Shown: positions 7,383 through 23,233 of the stretch, one piece after another | Position numbering within the stretch: position 1 is the stretch's first letter | How the letters are laid out: every line of letters begins with the position of its first letter | Assembly (NCBI GenBank): GCA_029222685.1 | Contig: JARHVB010000031.1 | Span: 1-64,000, forward strand | Origin: Terripilifer ovatus | GTDB taxonomy: Bacteria > Pseudomonadota > Alphaproteobacteria > Rhizobiales > Beijerinckiaceae | Reading direction: 5' to 3' | DNA length: 64,000 bases | Program-made: the position numbers and the translations under genes | The notes under the pieces: model-generated | What the model was told of the DNA's origin: nothing | The model's input: the letters and a program-made list of their open reading frames with translations, nothing else | The model's database searches: none

Positions 7383-7688
7383 ATGGACCTTTATGTGATC
7401 CGCCGCCCCAGCGCCTGGGCTAATATGAGCGAGCTCGAGAAGGCCGGCGCCAAGTCCGCCCGCATCGGCGTCGAGGAAATGCCTGACCGGGTGCGCTGGA
7501 TCCGCAGCTACGTGGTGCACGAGCCCGATGGCCGCATCGGCACCTTCTGCGTCTACGAGGCGCGCGACGGCGAGTCGATCCGCGAACATGCCCGCTGCGT
7601 CGGCATGCCGGGTGACGAATTCTACAAGGTCGCCACCACGGTCATCGTCAACGCCGATCCGGCGGAGCGTGCCGCCGCGGCGGAATGA
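7383..7688 (+). CDS. DUF4242 (SCO4226-type nickel-binding) family protein
   Basis: The product has 101 residues. The body MDLYVIRRPSAW...IRSYVVHEPDGRIGTFCVYEARDGESIREHARCVGMP matches the small ferredoxin-like DUF4242 fold, some members of which bind nickel. The start at 7383 has GGAG 8 nt upstream; an in-frame ATG at 7308 adds 25 unconserved residues and is less likely. The gene lies between a divergent winged-helix/TPR regulator and a TPR protein 73 bp downstream, probably in one transcript with the latter. Biological role is not established. Confidence 0.75.
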   Translation: MDLYVIRRPSAWANMSELEKAGAKSARIGVEEMPDRVRWIRSYVVHEPDGRIGTFCVYEARDGESIREHARCVGMPGDEFYKVATTVIVNADPAERAAAAE

Positions 7689-7761
7689 CCGGTTGAATGG
7701 CGCACCGCTTCCGGAACGGCCCGGAAGCGGCAGCTGCCTTCCATCAGCCTGGGAGACCGTC

Positions 7762-9114
7762 ATGAACGCAACCGTCGGACCCTTCGAAGCGACACAGATG
7801 ACGACGCCCGCCAACCTCGATCTGGAGTCACGGTGCGAGCACACGCTTGAACTCCTGCTGACCCATCGCGGCAATCCCTCGGCCGAGGTTGAGCGGGTAC
7901 TCGCCGACGATCCTCAATACGTGCCCGGCCATTGTCTGCGTGCGGCGCTGATCGTGCGCGCGGACAAGGCCTCCGGGCGCTCCAGGCTTGCTGACAGTCT
8001 GGCGGCCATCGAGGCGGCGTGCCCGGATGTGCGGGACCGCATGCATCGTCACGCCGCCGCAGCGCGGGCCTGGCTCGACGGTGATCCGGCGCTCGCAGCC
8101 GAACGGTACGGCGCCATCGTCGGAGACTGGCCGAGTGACCTTCTGGCGCTCGCCGTTGCACATGCGCTCGATTTCCATCTCGGCCAGCGCCGTATCATGC
8201 GCGATCGCATCGCCAGGGTGCTGCCCGCATGGACCGCCGCCATGCCCGGCTATGCGAGCGTCCTTGCCATGTATGCGTTCAGCCTCGAGGAGAACGGCGA
8301 GTACGATCTTGCCGAACAGATGGCGAAGCGCGCGCTCGCCCTCGACGCCCGCCATGCAGGCGCCATTCACGTCGTCGCTCATGTCATGGAAATGCAGGGT
8401 CGCGTCAGCGAAGGCCTCGCATTCCTGTCCGCCTACGAATCCGCCTGGCAGGACGGCACCGACCTTTCCATCCATCTCGCCTGGCATCGCGCCCTGTTCC
8501 AGCTTGACGCCAACGATGCGAAGCCCGCGCTGGCAACCTACGATGCCCGGATATCGGTCGCACGTCCTTCGGACATGACCGCGCTGGCGGATGCCTCGGC
8601 GCTGCTGTGGCGGCTCAAGCTCCGCAACATCGACGTGAGCGTTCGATGGCGGCAACTGGCCGACCGCTGGGAGAAACTGGCCCTGACCGGCGCGCGGCCC
8701 TTTTACATCGTGCATGCGATGATGGCGTTCGCTGCAACGAGCCGGACCGAGCCTGCGGCGCAAGCCCTTGGGGCGCTGCAGCGCATCGACACCGCCGATC
8801 CCTCGCCGCCTCTGACCGAAGATGCGCTTGCGCTGCCGTTCTGCGAGGCGCTGCTGGCCTTCGCCAGCGGTGACTATCGATCCTGCATCGTCTCGCTGAC
8901 GCGCGTGCGCCACATCGCCAACCAATGCGGCGGCAGCGTCGCCCAATGCGATGTCGTTCATCTCACCTTTACGGAGGCCGCCATACGCGCGGGCGCGCTT
9001 CGCCTCGCGGAAGCATTGGTGGCGGAGCGTGTGGCGGAAAGGCCGGCGAGCCGGCTCAACCGGTTGCTACGGCGGCGCTTGCGTGTGGAAAGCCAACATC
9101 GCGCTGCCGCCTGA
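7762..9114 (+). CDS. TTC38-like tetratricopeptide repeat protein
   Basis: This 450-residue soluble protein is helical throughout and resembles the TTC38 family: the segment MYAFSLEENGEYDLAEQMAKRAL followed by HAGAIHVVAHVMEMQGRVSEGLAFL is typical of its TPR core. No signal peptide or catalytic motif is visible, and family function is unknown. The chosen ATG has GGGAGA upstream; the same frame stays open back to 7528, but that part overlaps the DUF4242 gene. It ends 7 bp before the convergent panE-like pseudogene. Confidence 0.8.
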   Translation: MNATVGPFEATQMTTPANLDLESRCEHTLELLLTHRGNPSAEVERVLADDPQYVPGHCLRAALIVRADKASGRSRLADSLAAIEAACPDVRDRMHRHAAAARAWLDGDPALAAERYGAIVGDWPSDLLALAVAHALDFHLGQRRIMRDRIARVLPAWTAAMPGYASVLAMYAFSLEENGEYDLAEQMAKRALALDARHAGAIHVVAHVMEMQGRVSEGLAFLSAYESAWQDGTDLSIHLAWHRALFQLDANDAKPALATYDARISVARPSDMTALADASALLWRLKLRNIDVSVRWRQLADRWEKLALTGARPFYIVHAMMAFAATSRTEPAAQALGALQRIDTADPSPPLTEDALALPFCEALLAFASGDYRSCIVSLTRVRHIANQCGGSVAQCDVVHLTFTEAAIRAGALRLAEALVAERVAERPASRLNRLLRRRLRVESQHRAAA

Positions 9115-12455: not shown

Positions 12456-12962
12456 ATGTCAGAAGCCCCTTCCCATACGCCCCAAGCCCCTGTCCATACA
12501 CCCAACGGCGCGGCCGTCACCGACCTTTTCCGCATGATTTTCCAGGTCAACGCCCGGCTGATCGCCGATGGCGATGAGCTCGGCCGTGACCTTGGTTTCA
12601 CCAGCGCCCGCTGGCAGGTGCTGGGCGCCGCCGGCGACGCCGTGAGATCGGTGGCACAGCTCGCGCGCCATATGGGCCTGGCCCGGCAAAGCGTCCAGCG
12701 CCTTGTCGACTGGCTGGAGGAGCGCGGCTTTGTGGTTCTGGTCGACAATCCCGACCATCAGCGCGCAAAACTCGTGCAATTGACCGAAAAAGGCATCGAA
12801 ACCCGCAGCAAATTGAAATCTCGGCAGATCGCCTGGGTCAACGAGCTTGGCCTGGCGCTGTCGGGCGATGATCTCGAAACAGCCCTGAACGTCTTGATCG
12901 GCCTCCGCCAGGGACTCGACAAGGCGCGACCGGCCCGCAGGGGCGCTAAAACCGACCTCTGA
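12456..12962 (+). CDS. MarR family transcriptional regulator
   Basis: The 168-residue protein has the MarR winged helix: GFTSARWQVLGAAGDAVRSVAQLARHMGLARQSVQRLVDWLEERGFV and the wing VDNPDHQRAKLVQLTEKG. The first 20 residues are a proline-rich extension. MarR dimers usually repress neighbouring genes and are released by small, often aromatic, ligands. It lies 125 bp upstream of the dioxygenase-like operon on the same strand, with a TGTCA palindrome between them, and divergent from rplU, so it is the obvious candidate regulator of that operon. Confidence 0.9.
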   Translation: MSEAPSHTPQAPVHTPNGAAVTDLFRMIFQVNARLIADGDELGRDLGFTSARWQVLGAAGDAVRSVAQLARHMGLARQSVQRLVDWLEERGFVVLVDNPDHQRAKLVQLTEKGIETRSKLKSRQIAWVNELGLALSGDDLETALNVLIGLRQGLDKARPARRGAKTDL

Positions 12963-13012
12963 AATCATTCGATGCGGACCCAAGCATTGTCACGGCCATA
13001 ATGATCCTATCC

Positions 13013-13037
13013 TGTCATATTGACAGAATACTGTCAT
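13013..13037. promoter_or_regulatory. Candidate operator: TGTCA inverted and direct repeats
   Basis: TGTCA (13013-13017), a 3-nt spacer and TGACA (13021-13025) form a palindrome, followed by a further TGTCAT (13032-13037). It lies between the MarR gene and the dioxygenase operon and overlaps a TTGACA (13020-13025) that could be a -35 box, a sensible place for repressor binding. Confidence 0.5.
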
Positions 13038-13087
13038 CATGGCATGGCTCTCGGCAGCAAGATGCTCGTCTGCGAGCCGGGAGGACG

Positions 13088-14488
13088 ATGGACATGCGCC
13101 GTAAAAATCGCGCCGATCTCTTTGCCGAGGCCGTCGCGCGCCGAAATTTCGATGAAATGCCGATCCTCGAACTCGGCATCGACCCGCAGCTTCATCTCAG
13201 CCGCAACGACGTCGCGCAGCCGTTCTTCCTGATCTGCGAGCATGATTGCGTCATCGCCCAGATGTCGGGAACGGCGCGTATCGAGTTCCGCGCGGCTTCG
13301 GTCAATTATTTCGATCTCGTCCTGGGCGACTTCGTCTATGTGCCCGGCGGCACGCCACATCGTCTCGTGCCGTCGAGCACCAGCGTGCATCTGCGCTACA
13401 AGGCCGACGATCCGGGCCTCGAAGCCGTCGCCTGGTTTTCGCCCGCGACCGGCCGCGAGATCAGCAGGGTCGTCTGGGACTGCGCCACCGAACTGCCGCA
13501 GGAGGCCTATCTGCGCGCCTGCACCTCGTTCAACGCGACGCCGTCCCTGCGCACATGCCGGGCCTCCGGCGAGGTGCTGCCGCCCATCGACCTGACACCG
13601 TTCAACTGGCAGGCGGTGGCCCAGGAGATCCGCGCCGCCGAGGTGAGCGAGCGCGAGCGCGCGGCAAGACGCGGCCTGTCGTTCGAGGTCAAGCCGCGCG
13701 ATGACCGCACGTTCTGCCCGCCGCCGACCCATACCGAGCCGCTGCGTACCAATGTCTATGACTTCGTGCGTTCGGCGACGACGCAGCTCAACCCGCTGTT
13801 TCCCTATCTCGGCCCCGGCTGCATCGTACCCTGTTCGGCCATGCACGATCCCGATTTTCGCGGCGCCATGGGCTACTTCCTGCACGAGAATACCCAGCAG
13901 GAAGTCAATGTCTGCTTCGGCGCCCGCAGCAGTTTCCGCGCACCGGGCCAGGTCTTCGTCGGCCCGCTGCATCACGGCGTCGGCAACAAGCCATCGCCCG
14001 ACGATATTGATCTCGACAAACATGGTGTCGGCGAACGGCCGGGCAACGGCGATCGCGCCGACATGATCGCCATCGCCGTCATCACCCAGCGCCAGGCGAT
14101 CGACACGCCGCAGCGTGAAGCCGTCTCCATCGTCTGCGAGAAATGCGACACGCAATTGCATCGCCATCCCTACGATGCCCATGCCTTCCCTGATGCGATC
14201 GAGACAGACGATCCGGTTCTTCTTGGTCTGCCGACAATCTCCCAGGATGCGTGGATGTTCGAGCAGGTCAACCGCGATCCTTCCATGCGCACCTGCAAGA
14301 GCTGCGGCCACGTCAATCCGAAGTTCCCTATGCAGTATTGGGGCTGGGCCGACTACCGGCGCCGCACCCATGTGGCGGTGCAGGCGCGCAAGACCATGGC
14401 CGACGCGGCCCCGTCTTCTTCCGTCTCCCGTTCACGGGAAAAGATGACCCTTGCCCAGCAAGGATCGGATGAGGGAAGCAGGCAATGA
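13088..14488 (+). CDS. Two-cupin protein related to 3-hydroxyanthranilate 3,4-dioxygenase
   Basis: The 466-residue protein looks like two fused cupins. The N-terminal half keeps GDFVYVPGGTPHR (H91) but lacks a clear HxnE metal set. The C-terminal half has H266-x5-E272 (HENTQQE) and H295-H296 in GPLHHGV, resembling the iron ligands of 3-hydroxyanthranilate dioxygenase, and then two cysteine pairs, C350/C353 and C403/C406 (RTCKSCGHVNP), like the rubredoxin-type site of the bacterial enzyme. Usual enzymes are about 175 residues, so this is a distinct, longer relative. Ring-cleaving or related oxygenase chemistry on an aromatic is inferred. The start has GGGAGG upstream. It overlaps the Rieske gene by ATGA, and its last ~30 residues come from repeat DNA. 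Confidence 0.7.
   Translation: MDMRRKNRADLFAEAVARRNFDEMPILELGIDPQLHLSRNDVAQPFFLICEHDCVIAQMSGTARIEFRAASVNYFDLVLGDFVYVPGGTPHRLVPSSTSVHLRYKADDPGLEAVAWFSPATGREISRVVWDCATELPQEAYLRACTSFNATPSLRTCRASGEVLPPIDLTPFNWQAVAQEIRAAEVSERERAARRGLSFEVKPRDDRTFCPPPTHTEPLRTNVYDFVRSATTQLNPLFPYLGPGCIVPCSAMHDPDFRGAMGYFLHENTQQEVNVCFGARSSFRAPGQVFVGPLHHGVGNKPSPDDIDLDKHGVGERPGNGDRADMIAIAVITQRQAIDTPQREAVSIVCEKCDTQLHRHPYDAHAFPDAIETDDPVLLGLPTISQDAWMFEQVNRDPSMRTCKSCGHVNPKFPMQYWGWADYRRRTHVAVQARKTMADAAPSSSVSRSREKMTLAQQGSDEGSRQ
14419..14478. repeat. Repeat family C copy inside the 3' end of the dioxygenase-like gene
   Basis: The segment is bounded by CTTCC and GGAAG, and contains GTTCACGGG and CCCTTGC...GCAAGG followed by TCGGATGAGG. 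The same core words form the hairpin at 60304-60338. Here it lies inside the coding frame and supplies the low-complexity C-terminal tail. Confidence 0.45.
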
Positions 14489-14805
14489 CTGAAGCCGATT
14501 ACCACCGCGTCGCCACGACAACCGATCTCCACGACGGCGATGTCATCGAAGTACAGGTCGGCAAGACCCTGCTGGCGATCTACAAGATCGACGGCGGCTT
14601 CTACGCCACAGAAGGCGTCTGCACCCATGCCTATGCGCGCATGGCGGAAGGCTATGTGGAAGGCGACGTCATCGAATGTCCCTATCACGGCGGCGCCTTC
14701 GACATCCGCAGCGGCAAGGCCGTCGCTGCGCCGTGCACGCAGGACCTGAAGACCTTTCCGGTACGCATCGACGGCGATGCGGTTCTCGTCGGCATCGCGT
14801 CATGA
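14485..14805 (+). CDS. Rieske [2Fe-2S] ferredoxin
   Basis: This 106-residue protein carries the two Rieske motifs C46-T-H48 and C65-P-Y-H68, the cluster ligands of a small electron-transfer ferredoxin of the naphthalene/biphenyl dioxygenase type. It would shuttle electrons in the cytoplasm to an oxygenase. It overlaps the cupin gene and the following gene by ATGA at both ends, so the three are translationally coupled. A Rieske ferredoxin beside a cupin dioxygenase is unusual, since cupin enzymes normally need no external electrons. No ferredoxin reductase is in the cluster. Confidence 0.93.
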   Translation: MTEADYHRVATTTDLHDGDVIEVQVGKTLLAIYKIDGGFYATEGVCTHAYARMAEGYVEGDVIECPYHGGAFDIRSGKAVAAPCTQDLKTFPVRIDGDAVLVGIAS

Positions 14806-15791
14806 GCATCAACATCCCGCCGCCCCGCATCGAGCGCCCGCTCACCCTGCAGTTCCAGGGCGACTGGGGCCGCGCCAATCTGCATAGAGTCATGGGCTGG
14901 CTCGGCTATGAACTCGGCCGCCTCACCAGCCCGCGACTACGCTTCGCCATCTGGAACGGCACCGGCGGCATGGATGCCGTGCACGCCCTTGGTAGCGGCG
15001 AGATCGATGTTTCGATCATGACGCCGGCCTGCTGCGCGAAAATGGCGCTCGACGGCACGGGAATGAGCGCCGGCCAGGCCTTTGCCGACCTGCGCGCGCT
15101 CGGCCTCGTACCGCAGAACGATCGCCTCATCCTGGCGATCCGCCGCGACCATGACATCCGCAGCTTCGACGACCTGCGCGCCAGGAAACCATCGCTGCGC
15201 ATTGCCGCCGCACGCGACGACGGCACCAATCCCATCGGCATGATGACGCAGGAATTCATGCGCGCCTCGGGCATTCCACGCGCGATGCTCGAAAGCTGGG
15301 GCGGCAGCTATCTCGAACGCGACGAGCCGATCGACTGTTTCCGCGACGTGATCGCAGGCCGCACGGACGCCATCATCATGGAAGCGGTGATGAGCGAGTT
15401 CTGGCATGACATGGCGCGCCAGGTCGACCTGTTCTACCTGCCGATCGAAGCGGCAACGAAGCAGCAGTTGCAGCGCACCTTCGGCTGGACCTGCGCCACC
15501 CTGCCGGCAAATTTCCAGCCCGGCCTCGACGCGGACACCGAGTTCCTCGATTTCTCCGATTTCATCCTGCTGACCACCACGGCGCTACCCGACGACATCG
15601 CCTATGCCATGGCCTGGAGCCTGGTCGAGCGATACGAAGGCCTGGCGCGGCAGTACAGCCACATCCCTTCGCAGCGCAGCCCGGTCAACTATCCGATCGA
15701 TCCGAAAGCCGCCTGCCGCACGTCGATTCCACTGCATGCCGGCGCCGAACGCTATTATCGCGATGCGGGACATCTCACCGAACAATCATAA
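14802..15791 (+). CDS. TAXI/NMT1-like substrate-binding-fold protein without signal peptide
   Basis: The 329-residue protein resembles TAXI-type TRAP solute receptors and NMT1-like binding proteins: GTGGMDAVHALGSGEIDVSIMTPA is the usual early lobe, and FDDLRARKPSLRIAAARDDGTNP the hinge region. Such proteins are normally exported, but this one starts MSINIPPPRIERPLTLQFQGDWG with no hydrophobic leader, so it should stay in the cytoplasm. No TRAP membrane subunits are nearby. It is coupled by ATGA to the Rieske gene and followed 29 bp later by an MFS transporter. It may be an intracellular ligand-binding or enzyme-accessory protein. Confidence 0.7.
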   Translation: MSINIPPPRIERPLTLQFQGDWGRANLHRVMGWLGYELGRLTSPRLRFAIWNGTGGMDAVHALGSGEIDVSIMTPACCAKMALDGTGMSAGQAFADLRALGLVPQNDRLILAIRRDHDIRSFDDLRARKPSLRIAAARDDGTNPIGMMTQEFMRASGIPRAMLESWGGSYLERDEPIDCFRDVIAGRTDAIIMEAVMSEFWHDMARQVDLFYLPIEAATKQQLQRTFGWTCATLPANFQPGLDADTEFLDFSDFILLTTTALPDDIAYAMAWSLVERYEGLARQYSHIPSQRSPVNYPIDPKAACRTSIPLHAGAERYYRDAGHLTEQS

Positions 15792-15820
15792 ACACAGGCA
15801 GAAATCCGGGGAGGGATTTC

Positions 15821-17167
15821 ATGGAAACCAGACAGACCATTCACATCGCGCCCCTGCTCGATGACATGAAGATCGGCCGCACCCACATCGGCGTGTTCAT
15901 CCTCTGCTTCGTGATTCTGTTTCTCGACGGCATGGATTTCGCCGCCATTCTCGTCACCGCGCCCGCCATCCTGCGCGACTGGCAGCTCGAACCAAAAGTG
16001 ATGGGCACGATCTTCGGCGCCGGCAATCTGGGGCTTCTGATCGGCGCGGTGGTCTTCGGCAAGCTCAGCGACGTTTACGGTCGCCGCATCGGCATCATCG
16101 CCGGCGTCCTGATCTATAGCCTGCCGGCCCTCGCCACGGCTTTCGCCGACAGTTACGCCCATCTGCTGGCGTTGCGCTTCCTCACCTGCATCGGCCTCGG
16201 CGGCGTCCTGCCCAATGTCGTTACCTTGCTCACCGAGGGCGCACCGCAACGCGTGCGCGGCAGCTCTGTTCTCCTGGCCTCGATCGGCTACGCGCTGGGG
16301 CCGGCTGCGGTCGGCGCCCTCGCGGCCGTGCTCATTCCGCGCAGCGGCTGGTCCTCGGTGTTTCTCGTCGTCGGCATCGCCGGCACCTTGCTCGGCATCC
16401 TGCTTTATTTCGTCCTCCCGGAATCGATCCGCTTTCTCGCGTTGAAGACGCCGCAGTCGGAAGACCTGCGCCGGGCGCTTCGCCGCCTCGCACCCGATCT
16501 CGCCATCGGCCCGCAAACGCAATTCATTCTCGACAGCGATCCCGGCAGGAAACCCGTACTTGCCGATCTCTTTCATGGCCGGCTGGCGGTGATCACGCCG
16601 CTGCTCTGGGCCGTCTTCTTCGCCGAAACCCTCACCTTCATGACGCTCGTCAGTTGGGTGCCCATCCTGATCCAGCGCAGCGGCGTGTCGCCGGCCATGG
16701 CCTCACTGGCCTTCGCCTACGGCGCAGCCGGCGGCGGCGTCGCGCAACTGCTGTTCTCCAGAATCATCGACAGCTTCGGCTGGCTGACCACATTGACCGC
16801 GGCGATCGTCACGATTCTCGCTCTCTTCGGTCTCGGCATGGCGGAGCTGACACCGGCCATGATCATCGGCCTCATCGCCGCCGCCATGTCGTTTGCGACA
16901 GCCGCGCATAATTCGCTCTACAGCCTGGTGGGGCCGTTCTATCCAACAGCGATCCGCGGCAACGGCATCGGCCTCGCCAGCGGCGCCGGGCGCATCGCCG
17001 CCATCATCGGGCCTGTGGTCGGCGGCCTTCTTGTATCGCAACTCTCGCTCAGCGGCATGGGCATCGCCATGGCGCTGCCCTACATCGCCACCGCCGTCCT
17101 GTGCCTGATCTTCTACGTCCTGCGCACTCGGCCAACGCCCGGCGTCAGCGAACGCGCAGCGGCCTGA
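15821..17167 (+). CDS. MFS transporter, aromatic acid:H+ symporter (AAHS)-like
   Basis: The 448-residue inner-membrane protein has about 12 hydrophobic helices. Helix 1 carries LFLDGMDFAAI, like the D-G-x-D motif of AAHS transporters such as PcaK and BenK, and the loop 2-3 motif GKLSDVYGRRIG is the MFS signature. It is expected to import an aromatic or related carboxylate, consistent with the upstream dioxygenase-like gene. The ATG follows GGGAGG and lies 29 bp after the TAXI-like gene, so it belongs to the same operon. Confidence 0.9.
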   Translation: METRQTIHIAPLLDDMKIGRTHIGVFILCFVILFLDGMDFAAILVTAPAILRDWQLEPKVMGTIFGAGNLGLLIGAVVFGKLSDVYGRRIGIIAGVLIYSLPALATAFADSYAHLLALRFLTCIGLGGVLPNVVTLLTEGAPQRVRGSSVLLASIGYALGPAAVGALAAVLIPRSGWSSVFLVVGIAGTLLGILLYFVLPESIRFLALKTPQSEDLRRALRRLAPDLAIGPQTQFILDSDPGRKPVLADLFHGRLAVITPLLWAVFFAETLTFMTLVSWVPILIQRSGVSPAMASLAFAYGAAGGGVAQLLFSRIIDSFGWLTTLTAAIVTILALFGLGMAELTPAMIIGLIAAAMSFATAAHNSLYSLVGPFYPTAIRGNGIGLASGAGRIAAIIGPVVGGLLVSQLSLSGMGIAMALPYIATAVLCLIFYVLRTRPTPGVSERAAA

Positions 17168-17212
17168 TCGATTTCAAACCTGACGACCGAAGGACTTAAA
17201 CAGGAGGGGGAT

Positions 17213-18655
17213 ATGAAGCATATGAAAACGGCGCTCATTTGCGCCGGCGCTACTCTTTTGCCCATTGCAGCCGCGCAAGGCGCAGATCTGCCGTCGCGCA
17301 AGGCCGCTCCCGTCGAATATGTGCGGGTCTGCGATGCTTATGGCACCGGCTTTTACTGGATTCCAGGCACCGACACCTGTTTGAAAGTCGGCGGCCGTGT
17401 CCGCATCGAGGCCTGGTACACGCCGGCCAAGAATGCCGTCGTGCATCGCTCGACCGGCACCCCCGCAATGCCTGCCGGCACATTCGCCGCTGCCAACGGC
17501 ATCGACACGACCGGCTGGTTCGCCCGCGGCATTCTCAACATGGATGCGCGCACCCAATCGGCCTGGGGCACGGTGCAGACCGTCTTCGCCCTACGTCTCG
17601 CCTCGGCCACCGGCCTCGCCAATGCGCCGTTCGGCTACGCCACCAGCGTCTTCTCGGCCGGCAATGTCGGCAATGCAACGATCGAGGCAGCCTATATCCG
17701 CTTCGCCGGCTTCACCGTCGGCCAGGCCGCGTCCAGCTTCTTCCTGATCCCGCCCTATCAACTTCATTCGATCTACAATGGCGGCTTTCCCAACGGCGTC
17801 CGCCAGTTCACCTACACCGCAAGTTTCGGCAACGGCTTCTCCGCCACCTTGGGCCTGGAAAACCGCGGCGACCAGATCCTGACGTCGGGCGTCAATACGC
17901 TCGGCGCCAATCCGTTCACCGCGACGGCGGCGACGGCAGGCGCGATCACGCCGCAGCATCTGCCGGCGCTCGTCGGCAACATCCGCGTCGACCAGGCCTG
18001 GGGCACGCTCATGGCGTCGGCGATGGTGCAGGAGAACACCGGCAACTTCACCAATGCGGCCCTCGTCAACACCGCGCCGCAGGTCCGCCGCACCGGCTGG
18101 GCGATCGGCGGCGGCGCCCGCTTCAACCTGCCGATGATCGCGGCGGGGGACCAGATTCAACTCTGGACCAACTATGGTGTCGGCACGCTCGACTACATGT
18201 ACGGCCTGGGGCTGAACGGCAATTTCGCGATGACCTCGAACTTTCTCGGCGGCTTCCTGAGAGTCGATCGCGACCTGACCCTGTATTGCATCAACGTCGC
18301 CTGTACCGCCGGTGGCGTCGAACAGACCAGGGCCTTCGGCGCCACGGCACTCCTCACGCATTACTGGACGCCGTCGCTGCGATCTTACTTCGTCGGCACC
18401 TATGTGCAGGTGACTCCGGGCACCGTGACCCAGAATACCGCCTGGGCGATGGGCGGCCTGTCGAAAGCCCACCTTTGGAACGTCGCCGGCAGCCTGTTCT
18501 GGTCGCCGGTGCGCAACTTCGACATCGGCGCCGAACTGTCCTACGCCAAACTGACCCAGAGCCTGCCGCTCTCGGCACCGGCCGGCCTCGGCACCCTGGC
18601 GCAGGTCAGCCCAAGCAACTGGACGACCCGCGTGCGCGTCGAGCGGACGTTCTGA
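17213..18655 (+). CDS. Outer-membrane porin, Porin_2 family
   Basis: The 480-residue protein begins with a Sec signal peptide (cleavage near AAAQGADLPSRKAAP), followed by VEYVRVCDAYGTGFYWIPGTDTCLKVGGRVRIEAWY, the hallmark start of alphaproteobacterial Porin_2 proteins, and ends with RVRVERTF, the terminal phenylalanine of beta-barrels. It forms a general or semi-selective channel. A strong AGGAGGGGG precedes the ATG; a second ATG at 17222 is possible. It lies 45 bp after the MFS gene, so it may serve outer-membrane entry of the same substrate. Confidence 0.92.
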   Translation: MKHMKTALICAGATLLPIAAAQGADLPSRKAAPVEYVRVCDAYGTGFYWIPGTDTCLKVGGRVRIEAWYTPAKNAVVHRSTGTPAMPAGTFAAANGIDTTGWFARGILNMDARTQSAWGTVQTVFALRLASATGLANAPFGYATSVFSAGNVGNATIEAAYIRFAGFTVGQAASSFFLIPPYQLHSIYNGGFPNGVRQFTYTASFGNGFSATLGLENRGDQILTSGVNTLGANPFTATAATAGAITPQHLPALVGNIRVDQAWGTLMASAMVQENTGNFTNAALVNTAPQVRRTGWAIGGGARFNLPMIAAGDQIQLWTNYGVGTLDYMYGLGLNGNFAMTSNFLGGFLRVDRDLTLYCINVACTAGGVEQTRAFGATALLTHYWTPSLRSYFVGTYVQVTPGTVTQNTAWAMGGLSKAHLWNVAGSLFWSPVRNFDIGAELSYAKLTQSLPLSAPAGLGTLAQVSPSNWTTRVRVERTF

Positions 18656-18668
18656 TTGCTTCAGACCT

Positions 18669-18695
18669 CGGCCGGGAAACGCAATATCCCGGCCG
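18669..18695. terminator. Hairpin after the porin gene
   Basis: CGGCCGGG (18669-18676) and CCCGGCCG (18688-18695) give an 8-bp all-GC stem with an 11-nt loop, 13 bp after the porin stop. There is no T-run, so it is a likely 3' stabiliser or weak terminator for the dioxygenase-transport-porin operon. The rest of the 214-bp gap to the next gene shows nothing recognisable. Confidence 0.6.
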
Positions 18696-18869
18696 GCACA
18701 ACCGACAGCGGAGAGACATTCGAGATTAAGGCTTCAACTCTGAGTTATCGGGCATTGAAACGGCGATGACAGCCCTCACCTCTCAATAGCCCTCGCTTCG
18801 TGGCACACGGTCCGCGGACGGGTCGCCTCGCCGAAACATCGGAAAGCGTCTCCGGCATGGAGCCACACA

Positions 18870-19721
18870 ATGAATCCCATCACCCTGTTCCTCACAATCG
18901 TCTGCATTGCGATCGGCGCCGCCCTGGGCGCCGCCGGACATGTCAGTCTGGCAATATGCTTCGCGCTCCTGGCGGTCATCATCGCCGCTGCATTGAAGAT
19001 GGCAAACACCTGGCAGAGATTCGTAATTCTTCGCGCCGGCAAGCTGCTCGGCGTGAAAGGCCCCGGGCTTTTCCTGATTGTTCCGGTGCTCGACAATGTC
19101 GTTGCCGTCATCGATGAGCGCATTCAGACCACCGCCTTCAGTGCCGAGGCGGCGCTGACCAAGGATACGGTGCCGGTGAATGTGGATGCGATCATCTTCT
19201 GGTTCGTCCACGACGCGCAAAAGGCCGCCCTCAATATCACGAACTACCGCGAAGCGATTGACCGCGTGTCGCAAACGTCGCTGCGCGAGATGATCGGATC
19301 ATCGATGCTTTCAGCTCTCCTGTCGGACCGAAGCACAGCCGACGAGAAACTGCGCATCGAAATCACGCGCAAGACCGCCGATTGGGGCATCTCGGTGAAG
19401 TCCGTCGAAATCCGCGACGTCGCCATCCCCGTGGCGCTTCAGGACGCGATGTCGAGGCAGGCCCAGGCCGAACGGGAAAAGGAAGCCCGCGTCATTCTGG
19501 GATCGGCGGAAGCCGAGATCGCCGGCAAATTCGTCGAAGCCGCCAGGACCTATGCAAACGATCCCGCGGCGCTGCATCTGCGCGCGATGAATATCATCTA
19601 CGAGACGACCAAGGAACGCGGCGCCACGATCCTGATGCCCACGTCGATGGTCGACAGCATGAATCCTGTTGTGGCGATGGCTTTGGCGGGACAGGACGCG
19701 GCGCGCACTGAATCTTCTTGA
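18870..19721 (+). CDS. SPFH/Band 7 (slipin-type) membrane protein
   Basis: The 283-residue protein has two adjoining hydrophobic helices at its N-terminus (residues about 1-45) and then the SPFH domain: QRFVILRAGKLLGVKGPGLFLIVPVLDNVVAVIDERIQTT, followed by SVEIRDVAIPVALQDAMSRQAQAEREKEARVI, typical of slipins and stomatins. Such proteins scaffold membrane microdomains and often work with an NfeD partner, which is not present here. It stands alone on its strand. Function in this organism is not known. Confidence 0.9.
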   Translation: MNPITLFLTIVCIAIGAALGAAGHVSLAICFALLAVIIAAALKMANTWQRFVILRAGKLLGVKGPGLFLIVPVLDNVVAVIDERIQTTAFSAEAALTKDTVPVNVDAIIFWFVHDAQKAALNITNYREAIDRVSQTSLREMIGSSMLSALLSDRSTADEKLRIEITRKTADWGISVKSVEIRDVAIPVALQDAMSRQAQAEREKEARVILGSAEAEIAGKFVEAARTYANDPAALHLRAMNIIYETTKERGATILMPTSMVDSMNPVVAMALAGQDAARTESS

Positions 19722-19749
19722 AATGGGCGAAGGAAGTGCGCGGAGGGGG

Positions 19750-19884
19750 TGTTGAGATTCACGTCAGACCGTGCCGAAAATGGCGGCTCTCGAGAACCGG
19801 AGCGGAACGTACTTAAGTACGTGAGCACCGGAAGCGCAGAGAGCCGGCATTTGCAGGCCGGTATCACGTGAAGATCAGCACGCC
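19750..19884. repeat. Large imperfect palindrome with a 16-bp perfect core
   Basis: ACGTACTTAAGTACGT (19807-19822) is its own reverse complement. It is enclosed by GGCTCTC (19785-19791) and GAGAGCC (19839-19845) and further weakly matching arms. It occupies the convergent gap between the SPFH gene and the binding-protein gene and could act as a bidirectional terminator or be a dispersed repeat; no second copy was seen in the window. Confidence 0.55.
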
Positions 19885-20910
19885 CTAGCCGAACGCCAGC
19901 TTCCTTGCCTTGTCATCATAGAAGCCGCGATCGTTCAGTGGCTGGATGATCTTGGCTTTCACCATCAGCTCGTAAGCGCTTTCCCACGGCCCCGGCTTGG
20001 AGGCGAACTTGTCGCGGAACACCGGCTCGAAGGTGCCGGGCATGGCATTGGCGAGAATGCCGACGCCTTTGTCCGCCCGTTTGGTCTCCGCGATATCAAA
20101 GTCCTTCATCATCGATTCGATGACCGGCAACAGATTGGCCTTCTTCTCGATCATGTCGCCGATCGCGGCCTGGGTGCCGCGCATGAATTTGGCGAGATTC
20201 TCGGTCTGCGCCTCGAGGCCCTTTTTCGACACCATGTAGACCTGTCCCGGAGACGGCGCGAAATCATCCGCCGAAAAGCCGTAGACGGGCAGCTTGTCCG
20301 ACTGCAGGGCGAAGAATGTGTCGTTCGTCGCGATGAAAGCGTCGACCCGGCCGAGCTTGACGAACTCGAACGCTCCCGGCGCATTGCCGACGACCTCGCG
20401 CGGCACCGAAGCGATCGGCACATCCTTGCTCACCAGCATCATGTCGAGCAGGTTTTCGGTGGCGCCGCCGGTCGATACGACGCCGATCTTCTTGCCGGCC
20501 ATGTCGGTCGGCGATTTGATCGGCTTGTCGGCATGGCTGATGACGTAGAAAATGTCTTTCTGGAAACACTCGCCGACGGCCACCATGGACGGCTCCTTGG
20601 CATAGGCCTTGATGAGGTCGGTGCCGCCGGTGCGCGAGACAAGCGCATTGCCCGCGCTCACCTGCTGCACAGCCATGGCCGACCCGCGCCCGCCTTCCAC
20701 CTCGACGTCGAGGCCCTGCTTGGCGAAAAAGCCGCCGGACTTGGCGTAGAGCACTTCGGTAAAGCCCAGGATGAATCCGAAGGGCGTCAGGTATTTGACC
20801 TTTGTCAGGGGCTGTGCCGCCGCGCCGCGGATCAGCGCCGGCATCAGCAGGCCTGACCCGGCGGCGGCAAGCGAAGTCTGAAGGAGATGCCGACGATCAA
20901 TGCCTGTCAT
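19885..20910 (-). CDS. ABC transporter substrate-binding protein, NMT1/THI5-like
   Basis: The 341-residue protein starts MTGIDRRHLLQTSLAAAGSGLLMPALIRGAAA, a twin-arginine-style leader, so it is periplasmic. The mature part (VKYLTPFGFILGFTEVLYAKSGGFFAKQGLDVEVEGG...) matches NMT1-type receptors of nitrate/sulfonate/pyrimidine-type ABC importers. The start at 20910 removes a 16-residue unconserved extension. No permease or ATPase is adjacent. It is divergent from a nitrilase gene 141 bp away, which hints at uptake of a nitrile or amide, but this is inference. Confidence 0.88.
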   Translation of the reverse strand: MTGIDRRHLLQTSLAAAGSGLLMPALIRGAAAQPLTKVKYLTPFGFILGFTEVLYAKSGGFFAKQGLDVEVEGGRGSAMAVQQVSAGNALVSRTGGTDLIKAYAKEPSMVAVGECFQKDIFYVISHADKPIKSPTDMAGKKIGVVSTGGATENLLDMMLVSKDVPIASVPREVVGNAPGAFEFVKLGRVDAFIATNDTFFALQSDKLPVYGFSADDFAPSPGQVYMVSKKGLEAQTENLAKFMRGTQAAIGDMIEKKANLLPVIESMMKDFDIAETKRADKGVGILANAMPGTFEPVFRDKFASKPGPWESAYELMVKAKIIQPLNDRGFYDDKARKLAFG

Positions 20911-21051
20911 GTGCGTCTCGTTTCTGGATAGTGGTGGAAGACGCGATAGTATGCGCAAGCGCCAGCGGCTTAGGCAATTGAGAAATCGTCCGGCCGCTAC
21001 GCCATGAATGTATACAACTGATCCGGCGAAAGGGTTTCCGAAAGGGTTTCA

Positions 21052-21987
21052 ATGACGAAACACACCATTGCGGCGACACACAGCTCATCGGTGTTGCTCG
21101 ACCGCGCCGCCAGCATCGCCAAGGCCTGCGATGTGATAGCGGAGGCCGGCCGCAGCGAGATCGAACTGCTGTGCTTTCCCGAGACCTATATTCCGGGCTT
21201 CCCCTACTGGATCAACCTTTACCCGCCGGGCCAGCAGCACGGCATCTGCGTGCAATACGCGAACCAGTCCGTCGATCTAGCGGGCTCCGACCTTGTTCCG
21301 GTCTGCGAGGCCGCCGCCAGGGCGAAGACGAATGTGGTGATGGGCATCAGCGAGCGCGACGGCGGCACGCTCTACAATACCCAGGTCTTCATCGGCCGCG
21401 ACGGTGAAATCCTCGGCAAGCATCGCAAGCTGCAACCGACCTTCGCCGAGCGGATATTGTGGGGCCAGGGCGACGGCTCGACGCTCGGCGTGTTCGACAC
21501 ATCGGTCGGCAGGATCGGCGGCCTGATTTGCTACGAGCACATGATGAACCTGGCGCGCCAGGCGCTCATCCTGCAGCGGATCGAGATTCATTGCGCCAGC
21601 TGGCCGACCTTCGCCAGCAGCCAGCAGCGCGGCGGCACTTACGATCTCACCGTAGAAACCCTGATGCGGGCGCACGCCATCACCGGCCAGTGCTTCGTCG
21701 TCGTGGCGCAGAACCCGGTGACACAGCAGTATCTCGACGCCATGGAAGCGGTGATGGGCAGGCAGGACATGCTCAAGACCGGCGGCGGCTGTTCGACAAT
21801 CTTCGCGCCCGGCGGCGCCACCATCGCCGGGCCTCACACCGGGCTTGAGGAAAAGCTGGTCATCGCCGAGATCGACCTTGCCGACATCATGCGCGCCAAG
21901 GTCCTGGTCGACAGCGCTGGGCACTACGCGCGGCCCGATGTGCTCGAACTGGCGCTCGACCGGACGCCGCGCAACGGCTGGGCGTAG
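21052..21987 (+). CDS. Nitrilase-family carbon-nitrogen hydrolase
   Basis: The 311-residue protein shows the nitrilase triad: glutamate in CFPETYIPGFPYW, lysine in GKHRKLQPTFAE, and cysteine in GGLICYEH. The tryptophan usually following the cysteine (CWE) is a tyrosine here. Family members hydrolyse nitriles to carboxylate and ammonia; length and the PGFPYW motif favour a true nitrilase over an amidase. It stands opposite the NMT1-like receptor, suggesting a two-gene uptake and breakdown unit. Substrate unknown. Confidence 0.9.
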   Translation: MTKHTIAATHSSSVLLDRAASIAKACDVIAEAGRSEIELLCFPETYIPGFPYWINLYPPGQQHGICVQYANQSVDLAGSDLVPVCEAAARAKTNVVMGISERDGGTLYNTQVFIGRDGEILGKHRKLQPTFAERILWGQGDGSTLGVFDTSVGRIGGLICYEHMMNLARQALILQRIEIHCASWPTFASSQQRGGTYDLTVETLMRAHAITGQCFVVVAQNPVTQQYLDAMEAVMGRQDMLKTGGGCSTIFAPGGATIAGPHTGLEEKLVIAEIDLADIMRAKVLVDSAGHYARPDVLELALDRTPRNGWA

Positions 21988-22007
21988 TCTACAAAGAAGG
22001 AGACTTA

Positions 22008-22210
22008 CCAGAAGCCCTCATCCTGAGGAGCGCCTGAAAGGCGCGTCTCGAAGGACGGGGCGTCACGCCGCAGCGTCGCAATCCGCTTAGGATGTCCAAT
22101 AGTCATCGGTACTTTGTGCTCCTGCAAGGCCGCTCTGCATGATCTCCCACACGCCCCCGTCCTTCGAGACGCAACGCGATGCGTTGCTCCTCAGGATGAG
22201 GGCTTCTGAG
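22008..22210. repeat. Two opposed copies of palindromic repeat family A
   Basis: One copy (22010-22057) reads CAGAAGCCCTCATCCTGAGG and continues to CGTCTCGAAGGACG; the other (22157-22210) is its inverted form, starting CGTCCTTCGAGACGC and ending CTCAGGATGAGGGCTTCTG. About 100 bp separate them. Together they fill the 244-bp convergent gap between nitrilase and SDR genes, which contains no other recognisable feature. Confidence 0.8.
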
Positions 22211-22231
22211 GGCTTACTACCGCTCGCAATC

Positions 22232-23233
22232 TCAGATCACGCGCGCCATCGATGCATCCACCACGCTCGCCGCTTCCCGCGCGCCGATACATCCCAATCC
22301 AACCAGTGTCGCCTGCACCGCTTGATCCAGCGGGGTATGCGGCTCCGCTCCAAGCTCTGCCACCAGCCGCGCATTGCGCAGGCGGATCGGCTCCTGCCAG
22401 AGGTATTTCATCTCGCCGAGCTCGCGGAACAGCTGCACGAACGGCGATGCCAGTCTCACCGCCAGCCAGGGAAAGCGGCGTTCGCGAAGGCGCGGATCGC
22501 CGACCGCGCGCTTGATCGCCTCGATCATCTGGCGGCCGTCATGATCCCAGTGCCCCTCCATGTGGAAGCGGGCGAAATCGGCGAGATCGTCGCGCTCGAT
22601 CAGGCGCACCATGGTTTCGGCCACGTCGGGCAGATAGGCCCATTGATGCCCGATGCCCGGCCTGCCCGGATAGGAAACCGAGCGGACCGGCTGGCCCGGC
22701 TTCACCAGCCCCTGCGAGAACCAGTTGTTGGCCGCTTGCGGGCCGAAGAAATCGCCGGCGCGCACGATCAGCGCTTTCGCATCGCCCGCCCTGGCGGCGG
22801 CTCCGAGACGGGCCTCCATATCGACGCGGATTTTGCCTTTCCTGGTTTTGGGAGCTTGCGGCGCATCTTCATCGATGAGCGGGAAGGTCTCCGGCCCGAA
22901 ATTATAGACCGTGCCCGGCAGCACGATGCGCGCGCCAGCCTGCTGCGCCGCCGCCAGCGCATTCTCAAGCATCGGCACGGCCAGCTCGCCCCAGTTGCGA
23001 TAGCCCGGCGGGTTGACCGCGTGGACGACCAGCGAGACGCCATTCGCCGCGGCCGCAACATCGGCCGCTACCATGGCATCACCTTGAATCCAGTTAAAAT
23101 CCCCGCGTCCGCCGACCTCGCCGGGTCGCCGATGCAGGGCGCGGATGTTCCAGCCCCGCTGGCTGAGACGGCGGGCCACTTCGCCGCCGATGCCGCCAGT
23201 TGCACCAAGGATCAATGCGGTTCTGTTTTGCAT
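22232..23233 (-). CDS. NAD-dependent epimerase/dehydratase (extended SDR) family protein
   Basis: The 333-residue protein begins MQNRTALILGATGGIGGEVARRL, the Rossmann GATGGIG motif of atypical/extended short-chain dehydrogenases, and continues with VVHAVNPPGY and GTVYNFGPETFPLIDED, as in NAD(P)H-binding epimerase-like proteins. The start at 23233 has GGAG 8 nt upstream; alternatives at 23239 and 23242 are too close to it. It is divergent from a LysR gene (92 bp) that probably regulates it. Substrate cannot be predicted. Confidence 0.85.
   Translation of the reverse strand: MQNRTALILGATGGIGGEVARRLSQRGWNIRALHRRPGEVGGRGDFNWIQGDAMVAADVAAAANGVSLVVHAVNPPGYRNWGELAVPMLENALAAAQQAGARIVLPGTVYNFGPETFPLIDEDAPQAPKTRKGKIRVDMEARLGAAARAGDAKALIVRAGDFFGPQAANNWFSQGLVKPGQPVRSVSYPGRPGIGHQWAYLPDVAETMVRLIERDDLADFARFHMEGHWDHDGRQMIEAIKRAVGDPRLRERRFPWLAVRLASPFVQLFRELGEMKYLWQEPIRLRNARLVAELGAEPHTPLDQAVQATLVGLGCIGAREAASVVDASMARVI

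Follow-up and report, generated by a model that had tools for sequence, protein, structure and literature searches.

Organization of the operon

The subject of this report is a six-gene cluster at positions 12456 to 18655 of a 64,000-nucleotide stretch (below, the window) of contig JARHVB010000031.1 from Terripilifer ovatus. At its center is a cupin protein related to 3-hydroxyanthranilate-3,4-dioxygenase (3-HAO), followed by genes for a Rieske ferredoxin and for a TAXI-fold protein that has no signal peptide. The features, with scores of family models or other support, are as follows.

12456-12962, + strand: marR, MarR-family regulator (MarR_2, 45.3 bits, cut-off 27)
13012-13037, no strand: overlapping inverted repeats CTGTCATATTGACAG / TGACAGAATACTGTCA, a candidate MarR operator that includes a TTGACA (-35-like) element
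13088-14488, + strand: tandem 3-HAO-like cupin protein (hhalign, Foldseek and alignments)
14485-14805, + strand: Rieske [2Fe-2S] ferredoxin (Rieske, 76.8 bits, cut-off 20.3; CTH-x16-CPYH)
14802-15791, + strand: TAXI-fold protein without a signal peptide, proposed to be a cytosolic enzyme (NMT1_3, 63.7 bits, cut-off 27; GDWGxANxHR)
15821-17167, + strand: major facilitator superfamily (MFS) transporter of the aromatic acid/H+ symport type, presumably an importer (MFS_1, 145.6 bits, cut-off 33.4)
17213-18655, + strand: outer-membrane porin (Porin_2, 152.9 bits, cut-off 22)

An original prediction, made from the DNA sequence alone, had described a six-gene catabolic operon with two ATGA overlaps and gaps of 29 and 45 bp, probably under MarR control. 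The layout was found exactly as described: ATGA is shared by the cupin stop and the ferredoxin start and again by the ferredoxin stop and the TAXI start, and the gaps are 29 bp (TAXI to MFS) and 45 bp (MFS to porin). This spacing suggests that the genes are co-transcribed. The catabolic appearance and the likely MarR control are supported. The cupin gene probably starts at 13088 or 13094, since the start is preceded by GGGAGG and the relatives start with MRRKNR; the open reading frame start at 13001 is mechanical only and lies upstream of the operator-like repeat. Cupin residues are numbered here from the MRRK methionine at 13094. All six genes look real, because a related locus in Rhizobiales 62-17 (L002) keeps their order with 64 to 84% protein identity and dN/dS values (NG86) of 0.18 to 0.30. 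The interval between marR and the cupin gene in L002 is a 6 kb block; gene order is otherwise as in the window.

The cupin protein is a tandem of two 3-HAO-like units

The cupin gene product had been called a two-cupin dioxygenase. Its membership in a cupin family of ring-cleaving enzymes stood, but the description is refined to a diverged tandem 3-HAO-like protein. No Pfam family scored above its cut-off, and the curated 3-HAO models also fell below theirs (PRK13264, 30.5 versus 220; TIGR03037, 22.8 versus 145.95). When profiles were compared locally by hhalign with one built from seven 3-HAO sequences, the N-like part matched 3-HAO with a probability of 97.5 (E = 7e-12, 107 columns) and the C-like part with a probability of 94.4 (E = 9e-8, 88 columns). 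The two parts also matched each other (probability 93.9, E = 1.5e-7, 80 columns), mostly in the Cys region. Both parts are 3-HAO-like, and therefore the cupin is a tandem of two such units, an N-half (about residues 1-190) and a C-half (about residues 200-440). Foldseek, run with a low-confidence model of the cupin, gave 3-HAO in all of its first 18 rows, which were every row with E < 0.001; the TM-scores of these rows were low (0.15 to 0.17 by query), and the result was retained only because it agrees with the profile searches. Sequence searches of the PDB with the cupin gave nothing useful, a single chance-level match (E = 0.85) and otherwise none.

Eight loci could be read: the window, L002, L003, L037, L038, L039, one from Phaeobacter, and one from Sphingobium sp. 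AntQ-1. At the first four the N- and C-like units are in one chain (fused loci). At the other four (split loci) they are separate adjoining genes in reversed order, with the C-like unit first.

The alignments of the eight C-halves show invariant residues at H264, E270, H294, Q332-R333-Q334, C348, C351, C401, and C404. His264-x5-Glu270 aligns exactly, in 8/8, with the first two iron ligands of 3-HAO; H294 is probably the third. The four cysteines form a rubredoxin-like Cys4 site in every C-half. The N-half has Pro at the position of the iron-binding Glu of 3-HAO and lacks the first His, so two of the three iron ligands are gone. Its own Cys4 site is intact at the four split loci, while three of the four cysteines are lost at the four fused loci.

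In 3-HAO (Cupriavidus numbering), we take R47 and R99 to be the substrate arginines and Glu110 to be catalytic. By eye, the C-half alignment has Gly at the R47 position in 7/8 sequences (Arg only in AntQ-1), a gap or a residue other than Arg at R99, and an invariant Gln332 at Glu110. Because the trio of substrate arginines and catalytic Glu is not preserved as a whole, the substrate should differ from 3-hydroxyanthranilate, and cleavage of 3-hydroxyanthranilate itself appears unlikely from these residues. Identity with the 3-HAO of the kynurenine pathway was ruled out by the scores far below cut-off and by a separate true 3-HAO encoded elsewhere in the window's genome.

A redox partner stands beside the cupin at every readable locus

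The pairing of the cupin with a Rieske ferredoxin, proposed for the window, was confirmed and extends beyond it: an electron-transfer protein is adjacent to, near, or fused to the cupin at 8/8 readable loci. A Rieske ferredoxin gene lies by the cupin gene at three of them (the window, L002, and L037). At L003 the Rieske domain is fused to the C-terminus of the cupin in a single 570-residue frame. In L038 and L039, 79 bp separate the split pair from a divergent gene for a BphA4-type FAD reductase with a Reductase_C domain, and in L038 a flavodoxin accompanies the reductase. The Phaeobacter split pair has a BphA4-type reductase one gene away, and a PDR-type reductase follows the AntQ-1 pair by 4 bp.

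For the window ferredoxin the nearest models are AndAb and HcaC (AndAb, 95.9 bits, below its cut-off of 150). No credible Rieske ferredoxin was found within the 17 to 25 kb read at the split loci; only the fused loci showed such a partner. (Single frames in L038 and the Phaeobacter locus also matched the Rieske-motif scan and were not read as genes.) The genomes that carry L038 and L039 are those of two genus-mates, G1022 and G1024. PF14759 reductase genes number one in G1024, that of the locus, and two in G1022, including that of the locus; because they are so few, the adjacency of the FAD reductase to the cupin is unlikely to be due to chance. With caution, we read the distribution of the cysteines and partners as a replacement of the N-half Cys4 site by the Rieske ferredoxin as the apparent electron carrier at the fused loci. 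A further Rieske-type ferredoxin was seen far upstream in L004, a locus described below.

The TAXI-fold protein

The fourth gene had been predicted to encode a TAXI protein without a signal peptide. Its profile matched TAXI structures (best E = 1.1e-11), and it scored 53.6 bits with TRAP_TAXI, below the cut-off of 84.35. The prediction is supported for all eight TAXI proteins from seven loci: the best 12-residue N-terminal hydropathy mean was at most 1.03, compared with 1.3 to 2.5 for four control binding proteins assumed to be exported. This was a simple hydropathy measure rather than a trained predictor, and the lowest control value (1.3) came from a Tat-like protein read from an upstream start. 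The same eight proteins share the motif GDWGxANxHR. No TRAP permease was found among the nine proteins scanned in window positions 12456-21987; the rest of the genome was not searched.

Such a GDWG protein without a signal peptide lies at most 4 kb from the cupin at seven of the eight loci. At the eighth, AntQ-1, the cupin pair is preceded by a gene of the 4,5-dihydroxyphthalate decarboxylase family, which is 80% identical to one so annotated. Because this periplasmic binding protein (PBP)-type decarboxylase occupies the place of the TAXI protein, the TAXI-fold protein seems more likely to be an enzyme than part of a transporter, which we take from this analogy as a hint and not as proof.

Three of 289 class genomes matched the TAXI profile at E = 1e-30, the window's own and two whose proteins, by eye, lack the N-terminal GDWG. 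The window's genome also encodes a second TAXI-like protein (L010, G000:C81), 26% identical and by eye also without a signal peptide. In the Phaeobacter locus (L005), two GDWG TAXI proteins without signal peptides (1029-2018 and 7568-8557) lie in the same aromatic-catabolism island; one adjoins a set of VOC protein, FAA hydrolase, and hydroxylase genes, and the other precedes a dienelactone hydrolase.

Candidate operator, transport genes, and neighborhood

The sequence CTGTCATATTGACAGAATACTGTCAT (13012-13037), between marR and the cupin gene, is made up of a pair of inverted repeats that overlap. The 15-bp core has a single exact copy in the 7.2 Mb genome and one other site at one mismatch (control, 0). 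The 26-bp form was matched by 0/100 shuffles at up to three mismatches. That form is kept before the L002 cupin gene, although there the 6 kb block stands between it and marR, and the core is present in L037 ahead of a truncated cupin copy. Relatives of marR with 44 to 64% identity are found at L002, L003, L004, L037, L038, and L039. The MarR protein is a likely repressor of the operon, with putative binding to the 13012-13037 repeat. The segment ahead of the intact cupin gene in L037 (11013-12438) contains the operator core, a coding sequence for residues 1 to 27 of a cupin, and a broken Rieske-oxygenase-like stretch; it is the remnant of a rearranged copy.

The predicted AAHS-like (aromatic acid/H+ symport) transporter and the porin were both borne out, the former with 293.6 bits for TIGR00895 (below its cut-off of 418.55) and 205.5 for the PcaK model (below 770), in addition to the MFS_1 and Porin_2 matches listed above. 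Around other members of the family the transport genes differ. The L002 block lies on the other strand. Scanning showed that it encodes a TetR regulator, a metallo-beta-lactamase-fold hydrolase, an FAA hydrolase, and a binding protein of the NMT1 type; an ABC ATPase and permeases were identified by eye. By eye, this block is also present in L037. Neighbors in L003 are a luciferase-like monooxygenase and a TctC-type binding protein; those in L004 also include a branched-chain-type ABC importer (by eye). Thus, cupin, redox partner, and TAXI protein stay constant while the uptake systems around them change, a pattern consistent with the breakdown of a group of acids and not of one compound.

Downstream of the operon, window positions 18657-22280 encode an SPFH protein and a Tat-like binding protein of the NMT1 type, as well as a protein related to Nit6803-type nitrilases that scores below the model's cut-off. 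This segment looks like an insertion beside the operon, because it is without a counterpart in the otherwise syntenic L002.

Proposed function and alternatives

We read the operon as serving aromatic-acid uptake and oxygenation by an electron-dependent cupin oxygenase, with the help of a cytosolic TAXI-fold protein, and consider this reading, which is drawn from sequence comparisons, to have about an even chance of being right. An anionic aromatic acid would enter via the porin and then the MFS transporter, and the MarR repressor would bind the 13012-13037 repeat and control the operon. The enzyme would be derived from two 3-HAO-like subunits, with the N-half as a noncatalytic partner and the C-half carrying the catalytic Fe(II) (His264, Glu270, and probably His294) plus the rubredoxin-like Cys4 site. 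Unlike 3-HAO, the cupin would receive electrons from a partner protein of its own. For the split form, the probable route is reduction of a rubredoxin-like Cys4 site by an NADH-dependent FAD reductase; in the fused form, to which the window belongs, the N-half has lost its Cys4 site and the Rieske ferredoxin would stand in its place. The electrons could either power mono- or dioxygenation or keep the iron in its ferrous state from one cleavage to the next. The TAXI-fold protein, located in the cytosol, may handle the substrate or the product, perhaps as a decarboxylase.

The further step is to propose a new class of electron-dependent cupin oxygenases, in which a 3-HAO-like scaffold would pass NADH electrons to the cupin iron through built-in rubredoxin-like sites or a Rieske ferredoxin replacing one of them, and in which a TAXI-fold protein would have become a cytosolic enzyme. 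This proposal is tentative, and we would sooner doubt it than assert it.

Several results weigh against these readings. No PF14759 reductase is encoded in the window's own genome and, by inspection, the Rieske loci have no adjoining reductase of any kind; consequently, the genes found do not add up to a full electron chain here. In AntQ-1 the reductase comes after a phthalate-type gene and a nadC gene, the pCAR3 phthalate region has a nadC gene too, and a phthalate cluster of Polaromonas likewise contains a PDR reductase, so the AntQ-1 reductase could serve a phthalate 4,5-dioxygenase. The exchange of the Cys4 site for a Rieske protein is probably a single event, because the fused loci form one clade. 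The hhalign match of the C-half to 3-HAO spans only its second part, the predicted structure models are poor (predicted local distance difference test values of 42.2 and 51.4), and H294, invariant as it is, lies off the column of the third 3-HAO ligand, with which H89 of the N-half aligns. The TAXI protein has no detectable similarity to 4,5-dihydroxyphthalate decarboxylase (hhalign probability 0.3). As for regulation, the operator-like repeat was not found before the L003 cupin gene, nor in L038 or L039; a scan before the window cupin gene found no sigma-70-type promoter, and promoter and terminator scans were uninformative.

One alternative concerns the TAXI protein, which, instead of being an enzyme, could work in the cytosol as a sensor or substrate chaperone, or could be a binding protein that is exported through a different route. 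We think this quite possible, a little short of an even chance. The family assignment to TAXI binding proteins fits it, as does the lack of known catalytic residues for the TAXI protein, but it sits less well with the missing signal peptide in 8/8 proteins, the lack of a TRAP permease among the nine window proteins scanned, the shared GDWGxANxHR motif, and the PBP-type decarboxylase that AntQ-1 has at this position. If the TAXI protein is an enzyme, it may be an example of a transport protein that has become an enzyme of the cytosol.

Ring-cleaving dioxygenases of the cupin type are textbook examples of enzymes that work without an external supply of electrons, and the relatives of 3-HAO cleave rings in this way. 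The cupin could thus be an ordinary O2-driven ring-cleaving dioxygenase, with the ferredoxin or reductase merely re-reducing iron that has been accidentally oxidized, as XylT re-reduces the oxidized iron of catechol 2,3-dioxygenase. Foldseek and the profiles point to 3-HAO, and FAA hydrolases, which often follow ring cleavage, are encoded near the cupin in L002 and about 7 kb away in Phaeobacter; L037 has, by eye, a look-alike of the L002 FAA hydrolase. However, a partner at 8/8 readable loci, once fused, is more than a repair role would predict; moreover, the partner is of several types, and the catalytic Glu of 3-HAO is replaced by an invariant Gln. On balance we regard the repair explanation as possible and somewhat doubtful. 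A redox partner at every readable locus, once fused, would mean either a new type of multicomponent oxygenase or a dedicated repair system. To our knowledge, the role of the rubredoxin-like site of 3-HAO is unsettled; such a family would give that site a testable electron-transfer function.

That the Rieske ferredoxin lies here by chance and serves another oxygenase elsewhere in the genome is improbable: ferredoxins are exchangeable in many systems and the genome has no PF14759 reductase, but the gene has a start-stop overlap with the cupin gene in the window, is conserved in L002 and L037, and is fused to the cupin in L003.

Relation to known systems

With 3-HAO (NbaC/HAO; TIGR03037, PRK13264), the family shares the cupin H-x5-E iron motif and the C-terminal Cys4 rubredoxin-like site; it differs in having two 3-HAO-like units, per chain or as two subunits, and a redox partner. 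The partners belong to the same sequence families as the AndAb/HcaC Rieske ferredoxins and the BphA4-type reductases of aromatic dioxygenases; in those systems, however, the protein served is a Rieske oxygenase alpha subunit and not a cupin. The window TAXI protein belongs to the sequence family of the TAXI-TRAP solute-binding proteins but has no signal peptide, a distinct N-terminal motif, and no TRAP permease among the neighbors scanned. Pht5, the 4,5-dihydroxyphthalate decarboxylase of known structure (PDB 9jp7), is a cytosolic PBP-type protein similar in length to the TAXI protein, and a Pht5-family member adjoins the AntQ-1 cupin pair; nevertheless, the two lack detectable sequence similarity, and the profile comparison ruled out the TAXI protein as a Pht5 homologue. 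The two-subunit hydroquinone 1,2-dioxygenase PnpCD/HapCD is a heterodimeric cupin ring-cleaving enzyme. It was not named among the 50 Foldseek matches listed; no direct comparison with the window cupin was made.

The original prediction recognized no known pathway in the operon, and this remains so within the open-access literature and the curated family libraries used. No such system is described in the open-access literature searched, including the parts covered of PMC13040137, PMC6362003, and PMC9836352. Dipicolinate and hydroquinone pathways found no match in the literature searches. An anthraquinone or phthalate pathway by analogy with AntQ-1 was also rejected: the ANTQ gene figure of the AntQ-1 paper covers plasmid positions 68,745-106,725, and the cupin pair (116,486-117,736) lies outside it (PMC9836352). 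The word "cupin" occurs 0 times in the main text of that paper (PMC9836352).

Distribution

The gene set was sought in other genomes, and the same set was found in two genus-mates and a shorter form in a third. The cupin family is rare. Searches with the full-length cupin found it in 1/297 genomes of the order (the window's own) and in 5/121 relatives, all of the window's genus. The C-half profile matched 1/398 phylum genomes (again its own) and 2/385 class genomes; the second of these (G869, E = 7.9e-4) was weak and partial with one stop and was taken as chance. These samples overlap. The genome collection yielded three loci (L002, L003, and L004). Among 72,556 plasmid records, eight had the cupin: seven from Phaeobacter gallaeciensis, which were counted as one locus, and one from Sphingobium sp. 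AntQ-1. L038 and L039 are second, paralogous loci in the two genus-mates G1022 and G1024.

L004 was not counted among the readable loci, because it duplicates L003 over 4,266 bp and its contig stops partway through the cupin gene. The shared segment (L003 1-4266, L004 4935-9200) is 99.95% identical and contains marR, the luciferase-like monooxygenase, the TctC protein, and most of the cupin. The metagenome-assembled genomes that carry L003 and L004 are labeled Beijerinckiaceae and Rhizobium, which may reflect a recent transfer or be a matter of labeling.

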